From positions 868,001-932,000 of the forward strand of contig NZ_CP031015.1 in the NCBI RefSeq assembly GCF_003850245.1: a stretch of 64,000 bases of DNA, given 5' to 3'. Shown here piece by piece: positions 34,608-40,735 of this stretch. This stretch comes from Microbacterium sp. ABRD28 (GTDB taxonomy: Bacteria; Actinomycetota; Actinomycetes; Actinomycetales; Microbacteriaceae). The notes under the pieces were generated by a model, which worked only from the letters and a program-made list of their open reading frames with translations, was not told the DNA's origin and made no database searches. The position numbers and the translations under genes were made by a program. Position 1 is the stretch's first letter; each line of letters begins with the position of its first letter.

Positions 34608-34614
34608 TGTATCA
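34608..34614 (+). promoter_or_regulatory. TGTATCA motif before the sigma-factor gene
   Basis: TGTATCA lies 47 bases before the sigma-factor ATG. The same 7-mer on the same strand occurs at 39949-39955 and 40120-40126, just after the last gene of the sigma/S8/CHAT unit. It could be a recognition element of the local sigma factor, but no common -10 element is seen at a fixed distance. Closer to the gene, CACAAT (34648-34653) is a possible -10 for a nearly leaderless start. Confidence 0.35.
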
Positions 34615-34660
34615 CACGCCCGGGTGGTGCCTCTGTTCGGGTGTGGCCACAATGGGCGCT

Positions 34661-35278
34661 ATGACGCATGCTGACGCGGATGCCGGGGTCGACCCTGCCC
34701 GCCCCCTGCGTTGGGAGCTCGCCGCCACCCTGTTCCAGCGGTGGCGAGACGGTGACCGCAGCGCGATGGACGATCTCGTCCGACTGATGACCCCGACCCT
34801 GTGGCACGTGGTCCGGGCGTACGGCATCGACGCGGCGCTCGCCCAGGACGTCGTGCAGACGACGTGGCTGACCCTGGTGCGTCGGCACGAATCGATCGTC
34901 GAGCCCCTCGCCGTCTCGGGCTGGCTCACCACCACCGCCCGCCGCGAGGCGTGGCGGGTCGGTCGCCAGCAGCGCCGTGCCGACCCCACCGAGGTCGACG
35001 ACCTGGAACCGCATCTGCCGACCCAGGAGTCGGCCGAGCGGACGGCGCTTCGCGACGATGCGTCGCGGCGTCTCTGGGTCGCGGTGGCCCGACTCAACGA
35101 ACGCTGCCAACGCCTGCTGCGCGTGGTCGCCTTCGACGAACGACCCGATTACGCCCGCATCGCGACAGATCTCGCGATGCCGATCGGCTCCATCGGTCCG
35201 ACGAGGCAGCGGTGTCTCGGCAAACTGCGGGCGATCCTCGCAGAGGAAGGAGAGGACGGCAGAGATGACGACGGATGA
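34661..35278 (+). CDS. ECF-like sigma-70 factor of the S8/CHAT unit
   Basis: A 205-residue sigma factor with region 2 (about 23-105; LAQDVVQTTWLTLVRR, GWLTTTARREAWRVGRQQRR) and region 4 (about 135-195; LNERCQRLLRVVAFDERPDYARIATDLAMPIGSIGPTRQRCLGKLR), linked by an acidic stretch. It would redirect RNA polymerase to the promoters of a stress response. No classical anti-sigma gene is adjacent; instead a small protein gene overlaps its 3' end by 14 bases. I chose the ATG at 34661; an ATG three codons upstream is also possible. Confidence 0.88.
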   Translation: MTHADADAGVDPARPLRWELAATLFQRWRDGDRSAMDDLVRLMTPTLWHVVRAYGIDAALAQDVVQTTWLTLVRRHESIVEPLAVSGWLTTTARREAWRVGRQQRRADPTEVDDLEPHLPTQESAERTALRDDASRRLWVAVARLNERCQRLLRVVAFDERPDYARIATDLAMPIGSIGPTRQRCLGKLRAILAEEGEDGRDDDG

Positions 35279-35735
35279 CTCCGCCGATGCCCGTCTGTTC
35301 GCACGGCTTCGCGCGGTGTGGGAGGAGGTCGACCCGATGCCCGCGAGCCTGGTCGATCGGATGGTCGCCGCCGTGGCGGTCGAAGACCTCTCCCGCGAAT
35401 ACGCGCTCCTGACGCTCGTCGAGGGCACGCTCTCGGCGACACGCGGCGACGCCGATACGGCCACGCTGCAGTTCAGCGACGGCCGCACGAACGTGCTGCT
35501 GCACCTCTCCGTCGCCGACGACGGCCGTCGCCGGGTGGACGGCTGGGTCGATGCGGCCCCGGTGTCGATCCGGCTCGTGCAGCAGGCTCGCGAGTGGACG
35601 ACGGATGCCGGCGAACACGGCCGGTTCGCCTTCATCGACATTCCGCCGGGCCTGACCCGCCTCCGACTGTCGCTTCCCGGCGTGCAGGGGGAGACCGACC
35701 CCCGCGAGTTCCAGACCCCGCAGTTCGAAATCTGA
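35265..35735 (+). CDS. Small protein coupled to the sigma factor (unknown function)
   Basis: A 156-residue cytoplasmic protein with two parts. Residues 1-52 are helical (LFARLRAVWEEVDPMPASLVDRMVAAVAVEDLSREYALLTLV). Residues 60-156 are a beta-sandwich, of which GRFAFIDIPPGLTRLRLSL resembles a carboxypeptidase-regulatory-like (transthyretin-type) fold, ending TPQFEI. The ATG at 35265 overlaps the sigma gene by 14 bases behind GGAAGGAGAGG, so it is coupled. It may take the place of an anti-sigma factor or be a target of the proteases downstream (inference). Confidence 0.75.
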   Translation: MTTDDSADARLFARLRAVWEEVDPMPASLVDRMVAAVAVEDLSREYALLTLVEGTLSATRGDADTATLQFSDGRTNVLLHLSVADDGRRRVDGWVDAAPVSIRLVQQAREWTTDAGEHGRFAFIDIPPGLTRLRLSLPGVQGETDPREFQTPQFEI

Positions 35736-35788
35736 TCCTGCCGCGCCCGCGGGCGCGGCCTCGCCCATGATCGAGGAGACGCTTCACC

Positions 35789-37444
35789 ATGGTCCGACCC
35801 GACGGAACACCTGATTGGCGCGATCGCGTCGACGCCGCCCGCCCCCGCGGGGTGCCCCTGGATCCCACCAGCGAACGCGTCGAGGGGGTGCGGCCCTACC
35901 CGACCGCATACGACCCCGACCATCTCCTCCTCACCGACGATGAGCTGCTGGACGAGATCCTGTCGATCCTCCGCGGCGCGGCCGGCGACTTCGGATGGGG
36001 TGTGCGCCTGGAGACGGTCAGGGGTGAGCGCCTCACCGACGAAGCGGCGCGGGAGCGCGCGGGCGCCGCGCGGCGCGAGCTCGGTCTTCCTCTTGTGCTC
36101 GTCGCGCGGATCTTCCCCGACCCGCAGCCTGATCGCGACGACGAACCGGTTCCCCCCATCGACGCGTGGCGGCTGCTGCAGCGGGCGCGCGGCCGTTCGG
36201 GGAAAGGACTGCCGGGGGTGGGGCTCGACCACATCATCTCCATCGACCCGTACGGGTCGACCAATCCGTACGGGTCGACGAACCCCTACGGGTCGACGAA
36301 CCCCTACGGTTCGACGAACCCCTACGGTTCGACCAACCCCTACGGGTCGACCAACCCCTATGGGTCGACCAACGCACCCGGACCCGGTTCCTACGCCTAC
36401 CCCGGTTCCGGTGGTCGCGAGGTGGTGTCGTACATCGGAGACCCGCCTCGCCGCGACGACGAATCGATCACGGGGCGGCGCCCCGTGGTCGCCTTCATGG
36501 ACACCGGATGCGGGCGGCACGCCTGGCTGCCCGACAGCATCGTCGATCGTCATCTGCACAACGGTGGTGAGCCGGTCGGCGTCGTGGGGGCGGCCACCGA
36601 CCCGGAGGAGATCGGCGACGTGTCAGGCCCCTTCGACGGCTTCCTCGACCAGGCCGCGGGACACGGCACCTTCGTCGCCGGGGTGGTCCGGCAGATCGCG
36701 CCTGACGCCGATCTCATCTCCATCCGCGTCGCCGACAGCCAGGGGACCCTCTTGGAGGGTGAGTTCCTCGAGGCCGTGCGGACGGTGGCGGAACTGGTGA
36801 TCCGCTACGCCCGCGGTGAGGGTGGTCGGCCGATCGACGTGCTGAACCTCTCCCTGAGCTACTACCACGAGACGCCCGAGGACGGTCAGTTCGACCAGAC
36901 GCTGGTGACCTACCTGGTGGCGGCGCGCCGCCACGGCTGCGCGGTCGTCTGCTCCGCCGGCAACGACGCCACCGACCGCCCCGCGTTCCCCGCGGCACTG
37001 TGGCAGTGGCCGGATGCCGACTTCACGGTCGAGGACCCCGATGACGCCGCACCGCACCTGTCGGTCGGAGCGCTCAACCCCAACGGCAAGAGCGTCGCCC
37101 TTTTCAGCAACGTCGGCGACTGGGTCCGCGTGTACGCCCCGGGGGTCGCCGTCGTCAGCTCGGCGCCACCGCTGAACGGGGGCATCCAGGCCGGCACCCG
37201 AAACGACCGCTACGGCCTTCGACGCGAGACGATCGACCCCGATGACTTCACCGGGGGCTTCGTGATCTGGAGCGGCACCTCCTTCGCCGCCCCGCATATC
37301 GCGGGCGCCCTTGCCGAGATGGTCGGGGTGGGGCTCATGGACGGCTCGCTCGATGACAAGCCCGAACCGCGGGTGAAGGCTCTCCGCAAGGCCGGTGCGA
37401 AGCTCGAGAAGCAGTGGAAGGGCACGACGCGGGCACCCGCTTGA
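35789..37444 (+). CDS. Cytoplasmic S8 (subtilisin-like) serine protease with hexapeptide repeats
   Basis: A 551-residue subtilase without signal peptide. Residues 1-150 are an N-terminal domain of unknown fold; 153-194 consist of seven tandem hexapeptides (DPYGST then six NPYGST); 230-530 form the S8 catalytic domain with D238 (AFMDTG), H292 (GHGTF), the oxyanion AGN and S498 (SGTSFAAPH). All triad residues are intact, so it should be active inside the cell, which is unusual for this family and implies tight control, perhaps by the N-terminal domain and repeat. It lies between the sigma-coupled gene and a CHAT protease, all co-directional with short gaps. Confidence 0.9.
   Translation: MVRPDGTPDWRDRVDAARPRGVPLDPTSERVEGVRPYPTAYDPDHLLLTDDELLDEILSILRGAAGDFGWGVRLETVRGERLTDEAARERAGAARRELGLPLVLVARIFPDPQPDRDDEPVPPIDAWRLLQRARGRSGKGLPGVGLDHIISIDPYGSTNPYGSTNPYGSTNPYGSTNPYGSTNPYGSTNPYGSTNAPGPGSYAYPGSGGREVVSYIGDPPRRDDESITGRRPVVAFMDTGCGRHAWLPDSIVDRHLHNGGEPVGVVGAATDPEEIGDVSGPFDGFLDQAAGHGTFVAGVVRQIAPDADLISIRVADSQGTLLEGEFLEAVRTVAELVIRYARGEGGRPIDVLNLSLSYYHETPEDGQFDQTLVTYLVAARRHGCAVVCSAGNDATDRPAFPAALWQWPDADFTVEDPDDAAPHLSVGALNPNGKSVALFSNVGDWVRVYAPGVAVVSSAPPLNGGIQAGTRNDRYGLRRETIDPDDFTGGFVIWSGTSFAAPHIAGALAEMVGVGLMDGSLDDKPEPRVKALRKAGAKLEKQWKGTTRAPA
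36245..36370 (+). repeat. Seven 18-bp tandem units encoding (N/D)PYGST
   Basis: Seven exact-length 18-bp units within the S8 protease gene, each encoding NPYGST (the first DPYGST). Differences between units are confined to third codon positions except the first Asp/Asn change, so the amino acid sequence is conserved by selection or recent duplication while codons drift. The encoded linker joins the N-terminal and catalytic domains. Confidence 0.95.
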
Positions 37445-37482
37445 GATCCCCGGTGGCGAACCTGTCTGCGCGAAGATGAAGG

Positions 37483-39930
37483 GTGGCCACGAGAAGCGCC
37501 GACGATCTGCACCGACTCGCCGTCGAGTTGTGCATCTCCGGACGATACGCGCGCGCGCTCCGCGTGCTTGCGCAGGCCTCCGGCCGCACCGCTGATCCCG
37601 ACCTCCTCGCGCGCATCGAGGGGACCCGGGCTCTGGCGTTGCAGCGCACCGGGGCGCCCGCCGACGCCGAGCAGGTGCTGCGAGGAGCCCTTTCCGCACG
37701 CGGACTGACGACGCACACCCGCGCCATCCTTCGCGGGCAGCTCGGGGCGCTGGCGATGTACGGCGGACGGCTCGACGAGGCCGAGCGCCTGTTCGGCGAG
37801 GCGATCCAAGCCCTGGACGAGGTCGACCCTCTCGCCTCCGCCCGGGTGCGGATGAACCGGAGCCTGGGACGGATGCAGCTGCGCGATCTCGAGGGGGCCG
37901 CGGCGGACGCCGAGTGGGCTGCCGCGCGCTTCGCCGCCTCGGGCCTCGCGACCGACGAAGCGCACGCCCGGCACAACCTCGGCTACATCGCCCTCCTCTC
38001 GGGTGACCTGGTCACGGCGCTGGAGGCGATGCTCACGGCTCGCCCCGCGGCGGCGACGACCCCCGTCGCGGGCGCGGTGGGCGACATGGACCGAGCCGAG
38101 GTGCTGCGAGAAGCGGGGCAGACAACCGAGGCCGAGCGCCTGCTCGAGCGCGTCGCGGCCGTCTTCGGCGCCCACCGGATGCCGCAGTCGCGGGCGGAGG
38201 CGGAGTTCCAGCTGGCGCGATCGCTCCTCACTCACGACCCCGAGCGTGCGCGAAAGGTCGCGCTCGCGGCATCCCGCAGATTCCAGCGCCTCGGGAACGA
38301 GGCCTGGGCGCACCGGGCGGAGGCGATCCGCCTGCGTGCCCAGCTGCACACGTCACGCCCTGGGTCGAGGCCGGAGCTCGCCGAGCGGGTGGAGGAGACC
38401 GCGGCCGGTCTCGGGCGGGCGGGGTTCCGCGGCGAGGCGACCGCGCTGCGTCTGACCGCCGGCGCGGCCGACCCCTCGCTCGACGCGCGTCGCGTGCGCA
38501 TCGGTGAGGATGCCCCCCTGGAGGTGCGCCTGATCGCCCACGAAGTGAGGGCCGCGCGCGCCCGGCGACGGGAGCGGTACGCCGACGTGCGACGGCATGC
38601 GGCGCGGGGGATCGACACCCTGGCATCGTGGACGGCGACCTTCGGGAGCCTGGATCTGCAGACCTCGGCGGCGATGCACGGTGCGCGGCTCATGTACGCC
38701 GGCCTCGACGCGGCGCTGCGCTCGCAGGACCCGGAGGTGGTGTTCGCGTGGACCGAGCGCGCCCGGCACCTCAGCCATCAGTCGACTCCGCTGCGCCCGC
38801 CCCCTGACCCGCAGCTGGCTGCCGAGCTCGCGGAGATGAGGACGATCCGCGCGGAGCGGCCGGGGATCGACTGGCTCGACGATCCGCGCGCGGCCGAGCT
38901 GCGGGAACGCGCGCGCCGACGGCAGTGGGCGGGAACCCGTGCCGGCGAGGCGTCGGAGCGCGCGACGCTGCAGACCCTGCGCGAGGTCCTGGGCGCCGAT
39001 ACCGCGGTGTTGAGCTTCCTGTACACCGGGGCCGAGCTCGCCGTCCTGGTGACGGACAGTGAGCAGGACAGCCTCATCCGGCTCGGTGACCCCGACCGGG
39101 TCAGCCGGCTGCTGCCGGGACTGCGTGCGGATCTCGACATGGCGGCCGCGGTGCGGTCGGGCCCGATGGTCGCCGTCGTTCAGGCCGCGCTGCAGACCCG
39201 GTTGGCCGAGATCGGCGCCGACATCCTCGATCCCGCGCTGGCACGCACCGATCGCCGGCGACTCGTGCTCACCGTCCCCGGCATCCTCAGTGGTGTGCCG
39301 TGGGGGATGCTTCCGTCGATGGCAGGACGGGTGTTCACGGCGGCGACGTCGGCGACGCGCTGGGTGCGCGCGATGTCCGAGACGCCCGTGGTGGGAGGTT
39401 CGACCGGGTTCGTCGTCGGGCCGGGCGTGCCGCGTGGCGAGGAGGAAGTCGCCAGGGCGGGGGCTGCCTGGCCGTCGTCGGCGACGCTGCTCGCCGACGA
39501 CGCGACGGTGCGCGCGGCGGCCGGGCTGGCCGCGTCGTCGGGCATCCTCCACATCGCCGCGCACGGCCGCCACACCGCTGACAATCCGCTGTTCTCGGGT
39601 TTGGAACTCACCGACGGCGTGCTCTTCGGATACGACATCGACCTCATCCCCGAGGTTCCCCGCGTCGTGGTGCTGTCGGCGTGCGAGGTCGGGCGGTCCT
39701 CGGTGCGGTGGGGGGAGGAGGCGCTGGGCATGGCCCGCATCTGGCTGCACGGCGGAGCGGAGTCGGTGATCGCCGCACCTGTCCGGGTGGCCGACGACGA
39801 CGCATGCGAACTGCTGGCGGTGATGCATGAAGGCCTCGCCGCGGGCGAGGCCCCGGCTGAGGCGCTTGCTGCGGCCGCGCGACGGACGGGAATTCGGGCA
39901 CCGTTCCAGGTGCACGGCCGCGGCTTCTGA
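37483..39930 (+). CDS. TPR-CHAT domain protein (caspase-like protease)
   Basis: An 815-residue protein. Residues 1-430 are helical repeats with TPR-like periodicity (for example GRLDEAERLFGEAI and DEAHARHNLGYIALLSGDLVTALEAM). Residues 500-815 form a CHAT domain, a caspase-like cysteine protease fold, with catalytic H694 in ILHIAAHGRH and C734 in VVLSACEVG, followed by the conserved GxxxLxxGA-like GMARIWLHGGAESVIAAP region. No signal peptide. In other bacteria TPR-CHAT proteins act as signal-activated proteases in immunity or programmed death. Here it is the last gene of the sigma/S8 unit. GTG start at 37483. Confidence 0.9.
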   Translation: MATRSADDLHRLAVELCISGRYARALRVLAQASGRTADPDLLARIEGTRALALQRTGAPADAEQVLRGALSARGLTTHTRAILRGQLGALAMYGGRLDEAERLFGEAIQALDEVDPLASARVRMNRSLGRMQLRDLEGAAADAEWAAARFAASGLATDEAHARHNLGYIALLSGDLVTALEAMLTARPAAATTPVAGAVGDMDRAEVLREAGQTTEAERLLERVAAVFGAHRMPQSRAEAEFQLARSLLTHDPERARKVALAASRRFQRLGNEAWAHRAEAIRLRAQLHTSRPGSRPELAERVEETAAGLGRAGFRGEATALRLTAGAADPSLDARRVRIGEDAPLEVRLIAHEVRAARARRRERYADVRRHAARGIDTLASWTATFGSLDLQTSAAMHGARLMYAGLDAALRSQDPEVVFAWTERARHLSHQSTPLRPPPDPQLAAELAEMRTIRAERPGIDWLDDPRAAELRERARRRQWAGTRAGEASERATLQTLREVLGADTAVLSFLYTGAELAVLVTDSEQDSLIRLGDPDRVSRLLPGLRADLDMAAAVRSGPMVAVVQAALQTRLAEIGADILDPALARTDRRRLVLTVPGILSGVPWGMLPSMAGRVFTAATSATRWVRAMSETPVVGGSTGFVVGPGVPRGEEEVARAGAAWPSSATLLADDATVRAAAGLAASSGILHIAAHGRHTADNPLFSGLELTDGVLFGYDIDLIPEVPRVVVLSACEVGRSSVRWGEEALGMARIWLHGGAESVIAAPVRVADDDACELLAVMHEGLAAGEAPAEALAAAARRTGIRAPFQVHGRGF

Positions 39931-40123
39931 AAAAACTTGCACGCGGCGTGTATCAGGGGACCGACGTGCCGCTCCGACACTGTGAAGCGGCAGTGAGTGC
40001 GGTCGGCCGAAGCCCGACCGGGGGGCACTCGAGGATCTGCCGGGGGGCGCGCTCCCGCGGGGCGTGATGATCCGTGTCGCTTCCGGGGGTGTCGCGGGAG
40101 TTTCGGTCCGCGGCACCCCTGTA
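39931..40123. other. Intergenic region after the CHAT gene
   Basis: 193 bp between convergent genes. It holds two TGTATCA motifs (39949-39955 and the edge copy at 40120-40126), GC-rich imperfect stems (for example CCGACCGGGG near 40012) and no credible open frame. No classical terminator is seen. Confidence 0.5.
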
Positions 40124-40735
40124 TCACGTGCGCGAAGAACGGGCGCTGCGGCCGCGAACGATGCCGATGAAGGTCTGGATGTGGGCCTCGATCTCCCCGT
40201 CGGGAGGATCGATCGGCCACGCGAGACCGACGGATGACACGGGGCCGTCGCTCAGCGGACGGAACGTCGCATCTCGACGATGGTGCAACCGCGCCAATGA
40301 CATCGGGACGATGACGATCCCGGCACCGCTTGCTGCGGTGGCGATGGCCTCTGCGGTGTCGAGCGAGCCACCGAAGGTCGCTGCTGTCGTGCCCGCCACC
40401 TCGACACCGAGCACATCGTCCGACGGAGTGAAGACGGTCTCTCCGGCCAGATCGCCGGAGCTCAACTCGTCGGCAACGGTCAGGTGGGAGTCGGTGGACA
40501 TCACGACGACGGGCTCTTCGTCGTAGAGAGGGATGAGATGCAACCCCGCCTTGTCGATCGGCTGCCGTACGAGAGCCGCGTGGACCTCCCCCGCAACGAG
40601 ACGACGACGCTGATCTGACACCGAGATCGGCACGAGCTCGAGCGCGACCCGCGGCATCCGCTCCCGCCAGATCCCGATCCACTTCCCGGGGGTGGCTCCG
40701 GGAACTGCACCGAGAAGGAAGGGCCGCGCCGTCAT
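40124..40735 (-). CDS. LysR-type substrate-binding domain protein without HTH
   Basis: A 203-residue protein that matches only the effector-binding half of LysR regulators: GAVPGATPGKWIGIWRERMPRVALELVPIS at the start, then HAALVRQPIDKAGLHLIPLYDEEPVVVMSTDSHLT. There is no DNA-binding helix-turn-helix, and upstream sequence does not provide one. It may bind a small ligand and act with another protein, or be the remnant of a split regulator. I recall similar orphan domains in actinobacteria. The C-terminal RGRSARSSRT tail is basic. Confidence 0.75.
   Translation of the reverse strand: MTARPFLLGAVPGATPGKWIGIWRERMPRVALELVPISVSDQRRRLVAGEVHAALVRQPIDKAGLHLIPLYDEEPVVVMSTDSHLTVADELSSGDLAGETVFTPSDDVLGVEVAGTTAATFGGSLDTAEAIATAASGAGIVIVPMSLARLHHRRDATFRPLSDGPVSSVGLAWPIDPPDGEIEAHIQTFIGIVRGRSARSSRT

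Follow-up and report, generated by a model that had tools for sequence, protein, structure and literature searches.

The sigma-protease unit and its gene order

We analyzed a 64,000-nt stretch (the window, in whose positions all coordinates are given) of the 3.27-Mb genome of Microbacterium sp. ABRD28, focusing on four genes that encode an extracytoplasmic function (ECF) sigma factor, a small protein, an S8 subtilase, and a TPR-CHAT protease. A first-pass annotation made from the sequence alone had described these genes as co-directional with short gaps or overlaps, the small-protein gene overlapping the sigma gene by 14 bases, and the coordinates agree (Table 1). As read from the sequence, the unit extends beyond the four genes in both directions, with a promoter-like motif at 34608 and with a second such motif and a putative structured RNA at 39949-40119.

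Table 1. Features of the unit, in window coordinates
Feature	Position	Strand	Description
Promoter 1 (promoter-like motif)	34608..34633	+	TGTATCA-N16-CTC; 5' of the sigma gene
Palindrome TGTGGCCACA	34642..34651	strand-neutral	Between promoter 1 and the sigma start codon
ECF sigma factor	34661..35278	+	205 aa; ECF54-type context
Small protein	35265..35735	+	156 aa; two N-terminal helices and a beta-sandwich; proposed sigma-binding regulator
S8 subtilase	35789..37444	+	551 aa; no evident signal peptide; triad D238/H292/S498
S8 proposed prodomain	35906..36241	+	Residues 40-151; strand-helix-strand-helix-strand-helix-strand; I9-like by order
S8 hexapeptide tract	36245..36370	+	Seven tandem units, DPYGST then six of NPYGST; interdomain
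TPR-CHAT protease	37483..39930	+	GTG start; 815 aa; CHAT domain residues 574-800; H694/C734
Promoter 2 (promoter-like motif)	39949..39974	+	TGTATCA-N16-CTC; starts 19 bp past the last base of the CHAT stop codon
Proposed structured RNA	39982..40119	+	About 138 nt, 5' end inferred from the promoter 2 position; outer stem 39984../..40083; terminator hairpin 40085-40119

Domain searches against Pfam and NCBIfam assigned the sigma factor to Sigma70_r2 (3.8e-9) and sigma70-ECF (2.9e-16), the subtilase to Peptidase_S8 (1e-23; Pfam), and the last protein to CHAT (2.3e-20), together with TPR matches below the cut-off. The latter is the sole CHAT match in the source genome, and its profile, searched against the PDB at E<=0.01, found TPR proteins and no CHAT structure. 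The catalytic residues that the earlier annotation called intact are invariant among relatives: the S8 triad in 14/14 aligned proteins and in 62/62 of a wider alignment, and the CHAT pair H694/C734 in 11/11. The subtilase, which is 96-97% identical to its closest named Microbacterium relatives, had also been described as lacking a signal peptide; by eye, no signal-peptide program having been run, it has no N-terminal hydrophobic stretch. An AlphaFold model of the small protein (mean predicted local distance difference test score, pLDDT, 89.8) consists of helices 5-22 and 29-55 and a beta-sandwich, and its match to a carboxypeptidase-type family is weak (Pfam CarboxypepD_reg, 0.0079, below cut-off). 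An ECF sigma gene together with subtilase, CHAT, and carboxypeptidase-type genes is the context of group ECF54, of which this sigma factor is a candidate member by gene context.

We then surveyed relatives. A search with the small protein matched 16 of 299 Microbacteriaceae genomes, and in 14 of these 16 the sigma, small-protein, and S8 genes stand in that order (one of the 14 small proteins, at L029, was detected by profile and not by tblastn). The remaining two matches (E about 4e-4), in G056 and G298, stand alone, with none of the other unit genes, and are not counted among the 14. CHAT follows S8 in 13 of the 14 loci, completely or as far as the stretch reaches. We rejected G106, the fourteenth, as a CHAT-less genome: its CHAT gene lies about 4 kb beyond S8, behind other genes. 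By eye, L020 and L219 (G106) have ABC transporter components and a TetR-like regulator between S8 and CHAT.

Within the class Actinomycetes, the small-protein profile matched 73 of 394 genomes, two partial matches (E about 8e-4) being left out. All four families were present in 46 of the 73 stretches (L143-L215), neither S8 nor CHAT in 20, and other combinations in 7; a truncated locus, L108, was left out of locus-content and motif counts. The four families co-occur across genera, mostly in the same order, with S8 first or CHAT divergent in some genomes. This co-occurrence, a check proposed with the first-pass annotation, argues that the unit is conserved beyond what a chance arrangement would give. 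Its presence is patchy: CHAT occurs in 30 of 59 Microbacterium genomes, the source genome included.

The tightest association is that of the small protein with the sigma factor. Among 166 loci found by the small protein or S8, both genes were present in 162, with the small-protein gene directly after the sigma gene in 161 of these, and no locus had only one of them; in 12 of 12 loci examined, the small-protein gene overlaps the sigma gene or lies within 3 bases of it. One genus (12 genomes matched) carries the sigma-small pair without S8 or CHAT nearby. We rejected the idea that such pairs are leftovers after protease loss, as CHAT was found elsewhere in the genome in 8/8 cases checked, beside one or two opposite-strand S8 genes in 5/5 fetched. 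Because these unlinked genomes keep CHAT, with S8, elsewhere, the gene content describes two halves, sigma-small and S8-CHAT, that are usually joined. Judged by gene order, no other gene of the unit keeps as close to sigma as that of the small protein, also where the protease genes are elsewhere, and because of this tight linkage we infer that it probably binds sigma. Two observations on the unlinked arrangement stand apart: L223, L224, and L225 have two tandem S8 genes opposite the CHAT strand, with sigma-small elsewhere in the genome, and L165 and L174 have in common a gene of about 600 aa upstream of the unlinked pair.

Promoter-like motifs and a putative RNA after CHAT

The regions upstream of the sigma genes have in common the motif TGTATCA-N16-CTC, which we scored as exact (spacer 15-17) or relaxed (first base relaxed). 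Of 49 named Microbacterium/Microbacteriaceae loci, 46 have the exact form ahead of the operon, as do 9 of 25 other named loci (21/25 relaxed), while shuffled controls gave none in each group (0/49 for Microbacterium/Microbacteriaceae). Nine loci in genomes of 8-10 Mb, with the order S8-sigma-small and CHAT divergent, have the motif between CHAT and S8, before S8. By eye, the palindrome TGTGNNCACA or a near form of it recurs in most Microbacterium rows of the upstream alignment; it is possibly an operator or a translation element.

A second copy of the motif follows CHAT. Of 44 named Microbacterium/Microbacteriaceae loci, 40 have the exact form no more than about 120 bp past CHAT. Across the 30 Microbacterium genomes with CHAT, it is found within 100 bp on the same strand in 23, within 500 bp in two more (G686 and G710), and 1.5 kb and 7.7 kb away in another two (G683 and G679), making 27/30 for the CHAT region overall; it was not found after CHAT in G692, G715, and G701. 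The source genome has three exact matches (34608, 39949, and 56662, the last on the minus strand), and a reversed-pattern control also gives three. Over all 30 genomes with CHAT there are 102 motif matches against 36 for the control, and over the 29 Microbacterium genomes without CHAT there are 23 against 33, with no excess. The excess amounts to about two per CHAT genome, which equals the count of sites at the locus, and we saw none for the exact motif elsewhere in Microbacterium genomes, weaker sites not having been searched for. These distributions support a promoter-like motif that ties the sigma factor to its operon.

The first-pass annotation had proposed that one sigma factor governs a cascade of two proteases. 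Two intracellular proteases beside one sigma factor is a sound description, because the unit is conserved and a common promoter-like motif accompanies it; the cascade itself is conjectural. We also considered whether the unit is an ordinary ECF54 stress regulator, in which the proteases degrade sigma directly, there is no anti-sigma factor, and the small protein is a substrate or adaptor. Proteolytic control is indeed what the ECF54 passages of PMC8999054 propose. Yet the small protein stays beside sigma when the protease genes are elsewhere, and no motif excess was seen beyond the locus (weaker sites not having been searched for), which differs from a broad stress regulon, so that we consider this explanation rather unlikely.

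In most Microbacterium loci, promoter 2 precedes a putative RNA whose outer stem starts about 10 nt past the CTC, followed by inner hairpins, GGGG runs (often as CTGGGG), and a strong terminator hairpin. At L071 the site reads into an open reading frame (ORF) instead of the RNA. The RNA region is unlikely to be coding, because the lengths of the indels that separate close relatives are not divisible by three; ATG/GTG open frames do occur in it, the longest per locus having 24-99 codons. The outer stem covaries: across 29 dereplicated RNAs (L071 left out), the 5' strand paired with its own 3' region at a mean score of 20.6, against 15.9 with the 3' regions of other species, although the cognate region was best or tied best in only 9/29. 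Permutation reached the observed value in 0/20000 trials, as in 0/5000 trials of an earlier form with 31 RNAs, L071 included. GGGG runs fall in hairpin loops in 54 of 115 cases (0/4 for the window), against an average of 26 of 75 for shuffles. The RNA is kept in G679 and G683, where it is 1.5-8 kb from CHAT, and in G106 CHAT, promoter 2, and the RNA stay together.

Rfam gave only chance-level matches for window positions 39800-40300 at E<=10, and no match in seven relative loci. We discarded folding energy as proof of structure, its signal being weak: energies are only modestly below those of shuffles (mean z -1.1; 7/32 below -2; window -0.97). A single covariance model for all RNAs also failed. 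Model R1, built on group B, recovers B-type RNAs on which it was not trained (L220, L222, L052, L054, L219, and L050) but misses the group of the window RNA, where it gave only weak matches at the correct position, in L034 (E 0.37) and L033 (E 3.2). RNAalifold did not choose the outer stem in the group-B alignment and returned the terminator hairpin only in group A. The modest folding energy, the miss by the group-B model, and the group-A result would all suit an element that is just a terminator with a fortuitous promoter-like word and no functional RNA. We think this very unlikely, given the position and strand of the exact motif in 23/30 genomes, the retention of the RNA far from CHAT in two genomes, and the covariation of the outer stem.

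Similar RNAs follow CHAT in Nocardioidaceae (L077, L090, and L099-L101). At L082, L103, L110, L153, and L154, a relaxed promoter 2 is followed by an ORF of about 100 aa instead of the RNA, and a relative of this ORF follows CHAT in L095 and L109. The family has the core ...LGLSRWQV.DRP...HGF.FLVF... and no Pfam match above cut-off among the five members scanned. A guess that this Nocardioides protein is a chagasin (I42) was dropped, as Pfam and PDB profile searches give it no support.

Type III toxin-antitoxin systems likewise encode a small structured RNA beside a potentially harmful protein. The present RNA differs in lying downstream under its own promoter-like motif, and its binding to a protein is only conjectural.

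The S8 subtilase and its hexapeptide linker

The AlphaFold model of the subtilase (mean pLDDT 80.3) comprises an N-terminal alpha-beta domain (residues 40-151; pLDDT 81-98), a low-confidence stretch (152-216) that includes the disordered hexapeptide tract, and the catalytic domain. Foldseek matched the model to pro-subtilisins over 497-544 columns, gaps included and aligned ranges not shown. These proteins (among them PCSK9, ProN-Tk-SP 3afg, and pro-subtilisin E 3whi) likewise have a domain before the S8 domain, align over about 500 gapped columns, and reach template modelling (TM) scores by query of 0.36-0.41; they differ from the present S8, which has no visible signal peptide and whose domains are joined by a species-variable tandem hexapeptide tract. 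As modelled, the subtilase looks like a cytoplasmic zymogen with two domains linked by tandem hexapeptides.

At least three tandem units lie between the domains in 103 of 113 main-clade S8 proteins, and in 89 of 99 after dereplication at 90%. The 89 proteins contain 58 different repeat units when reading phase is ignored; this number replaces an earlier, phase-dependent count of 69. Leaving the first copy aside, neighboring copies differ by 467 silent codon changes and by 9 that replace the residue; with it included, the counts are 641 and 95. Repeats were called under an 80% identity rule, which biases against replacing changes. Because so many silent changes separate the copies, they do not appear to be fresh duplicates. 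From these comparisons, the unit is held constant within one protein and changes between species. No tract was seen in the parts inspected of 28 lower-scoring, more distant S8 proteins.

A linker that varies by species, together with the patchy presence of CHAT in Microbacterium, would also fit an abortive-infection or cell-death system, in which a phage or damage signal triggers CHAT and S8 then degrades the proteome. A TPR-CHAT protease does act in CRISPR immunity, as described in the passages of PMC10028731 on that system. We regard such a role, which the first-pass annotation had suggested alongside stress, as unlikely, and either role is conjectural at this locus. PADLOC identified no complete defence system, only weak single-gene matches (S8 to subtilase, 4.7e-10, and IetS, 4.3e-5; CHAT to BovA, 0.042), and the two genes adjoining the unit, which were the flanking genes examined, have a GATase and a LysR-type substrate domain (Pfam).

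A proposed sigma circuit and related systems

Our preferred explanation, which we hold about as likely as not, is a sigma circuit that is closed and self-amplifying and governs two cytoplasmic proteases. Under this proposal, the sigma factor would recognize TGTATCA-N16-CTC and would therefore chiefly drive its own operon and the RNA. Bound to sigma, the small protein would keep it off, the N-terminal S8 domain would be an inhibitory prodomain, and TPR-CHAT would serve as the sensor protease. Once triggered, CHAT would cut the small protein, or dock on and cut the S8 hexapeptide linker, or both; cleavage would release sigma and free S8, and positive feedback would fill the cell with the two proteases. 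A second output would be the RNA, whose place is taken in some Nocardioides by the roughly 100-aa protein; either is a candidate to act as brake or effector. Co-conservation, the locus-confined motif excess, the zymogen-like S8, sigma-small adjacency, and near-silent repeat divergence are consistent with this scheme. A precedent is the TPR-CHAT protein Csx29, which cleaves Csx30, an inhibitor of an ECF sigma factor, according to the relevant passages of PMC10028731.

Several points weigh against the circuit. The small protein has no anti-sigma domain match in Pfam or NCBIfam and no PDB fold match at E<=0.001 (Foldseek), and the passages of PMC8999054 on ECF54 propose control by proteolysis without an anti-sigma factor. 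The N-terminal S8 domain is likely a prodomain, a reading not settled because the Foldseek aligned ranges are not shown and the Pfam I9 prodomain model has no match in S8. Across the class, the upstream motif is present in only 21/70 loci in relaxed form (14/70 exact), and a relaxed second motif within about 120 bp after CHAT occurs in 6/21 other named loci and in 6/28 class loci, some Microbacterium included. The link of sigma to the motif, the expression, and the activities are predicted from sequence.

The four-gene association is not new, because the ECF54 passages of PMC8999054 already report conserved carboxypeptidase, subtilase, and CHAT genes around ECF54 sigma genes; the likeness of the present unit lies in these same gene types. 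Those passages make no mention of a promoter motif, a second promoter, an RNA, a hexapeptide linker, or a split into two halves, and our literature searches on the RNA, the linker, and the operon did not find the promoter motif, the structured RNA, or the hexapeptide linker described. The ECF54 link, the second promoter with its RNA, the hexapeptide linker, and the small protein as the closest companion of sigma also go beyond the first-pass annotation.

Two further systems are comparable in part. The type III-E CASP/Craspase locus likewise combines a TPR-CHAT protease, a regulator protein, and an ECF sigma factor, as the passages in PMC10028731 describe, whereas the two genes flanking the present unit are not cas genes and the unit adds S8. 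Its small protein has 156 aa, compared with 565 aa for Csx30 (same source), and the window CHAT is linked to Csx29 through its domain name and not through an alignment. EACC2 loci join a caspase domain with an ECF sigma factor and a TPR protein (PMC8195603), but with another gene set, and the passages on them mention neither S8 nor a small beta-sandwich partner.

For ECF54, the passages of PMC8999054 offer a conserved context and a mechanism so far only proposed. The two-promoter signature, the RNA, and the repeat-linked S8 would make it a defined, testable circuit, with three points open to experiment: (i) what sigma reads, (ii) what CHAT cuts, and (iii) what the RNA does. With 58 units among 89 proteins, the hexapeptide tract can be seen as a peptide code that nature has diversified, of use in tracking down whichever partner reads it.

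Modelled on Craspase, where target RNA sets protease activity, a more speculative and quite improbable version makes the unit an RNA-gated caspase-subtilase switch. Here the G-rich, partly looped RNA would bind TPR-CHAT (or S8) and set its activity, the S8 hexapeptide ladder would be a species-specific docking or cleavage track for CHAT, and in some Nocardioides the roughly 100-aa protein would replace the RNA as a sigma-driven brake. If this gating were true, RNA-controlled caspase-like proteases would exist outside CRISPR.

Beyond the unit, the LysR-type substrate-binding domain lies in a 203-aa ORF (40124-40735, minus strand) for which Pfam gives no DNA-binding family; L092, too, by eye has a relative after the unit.

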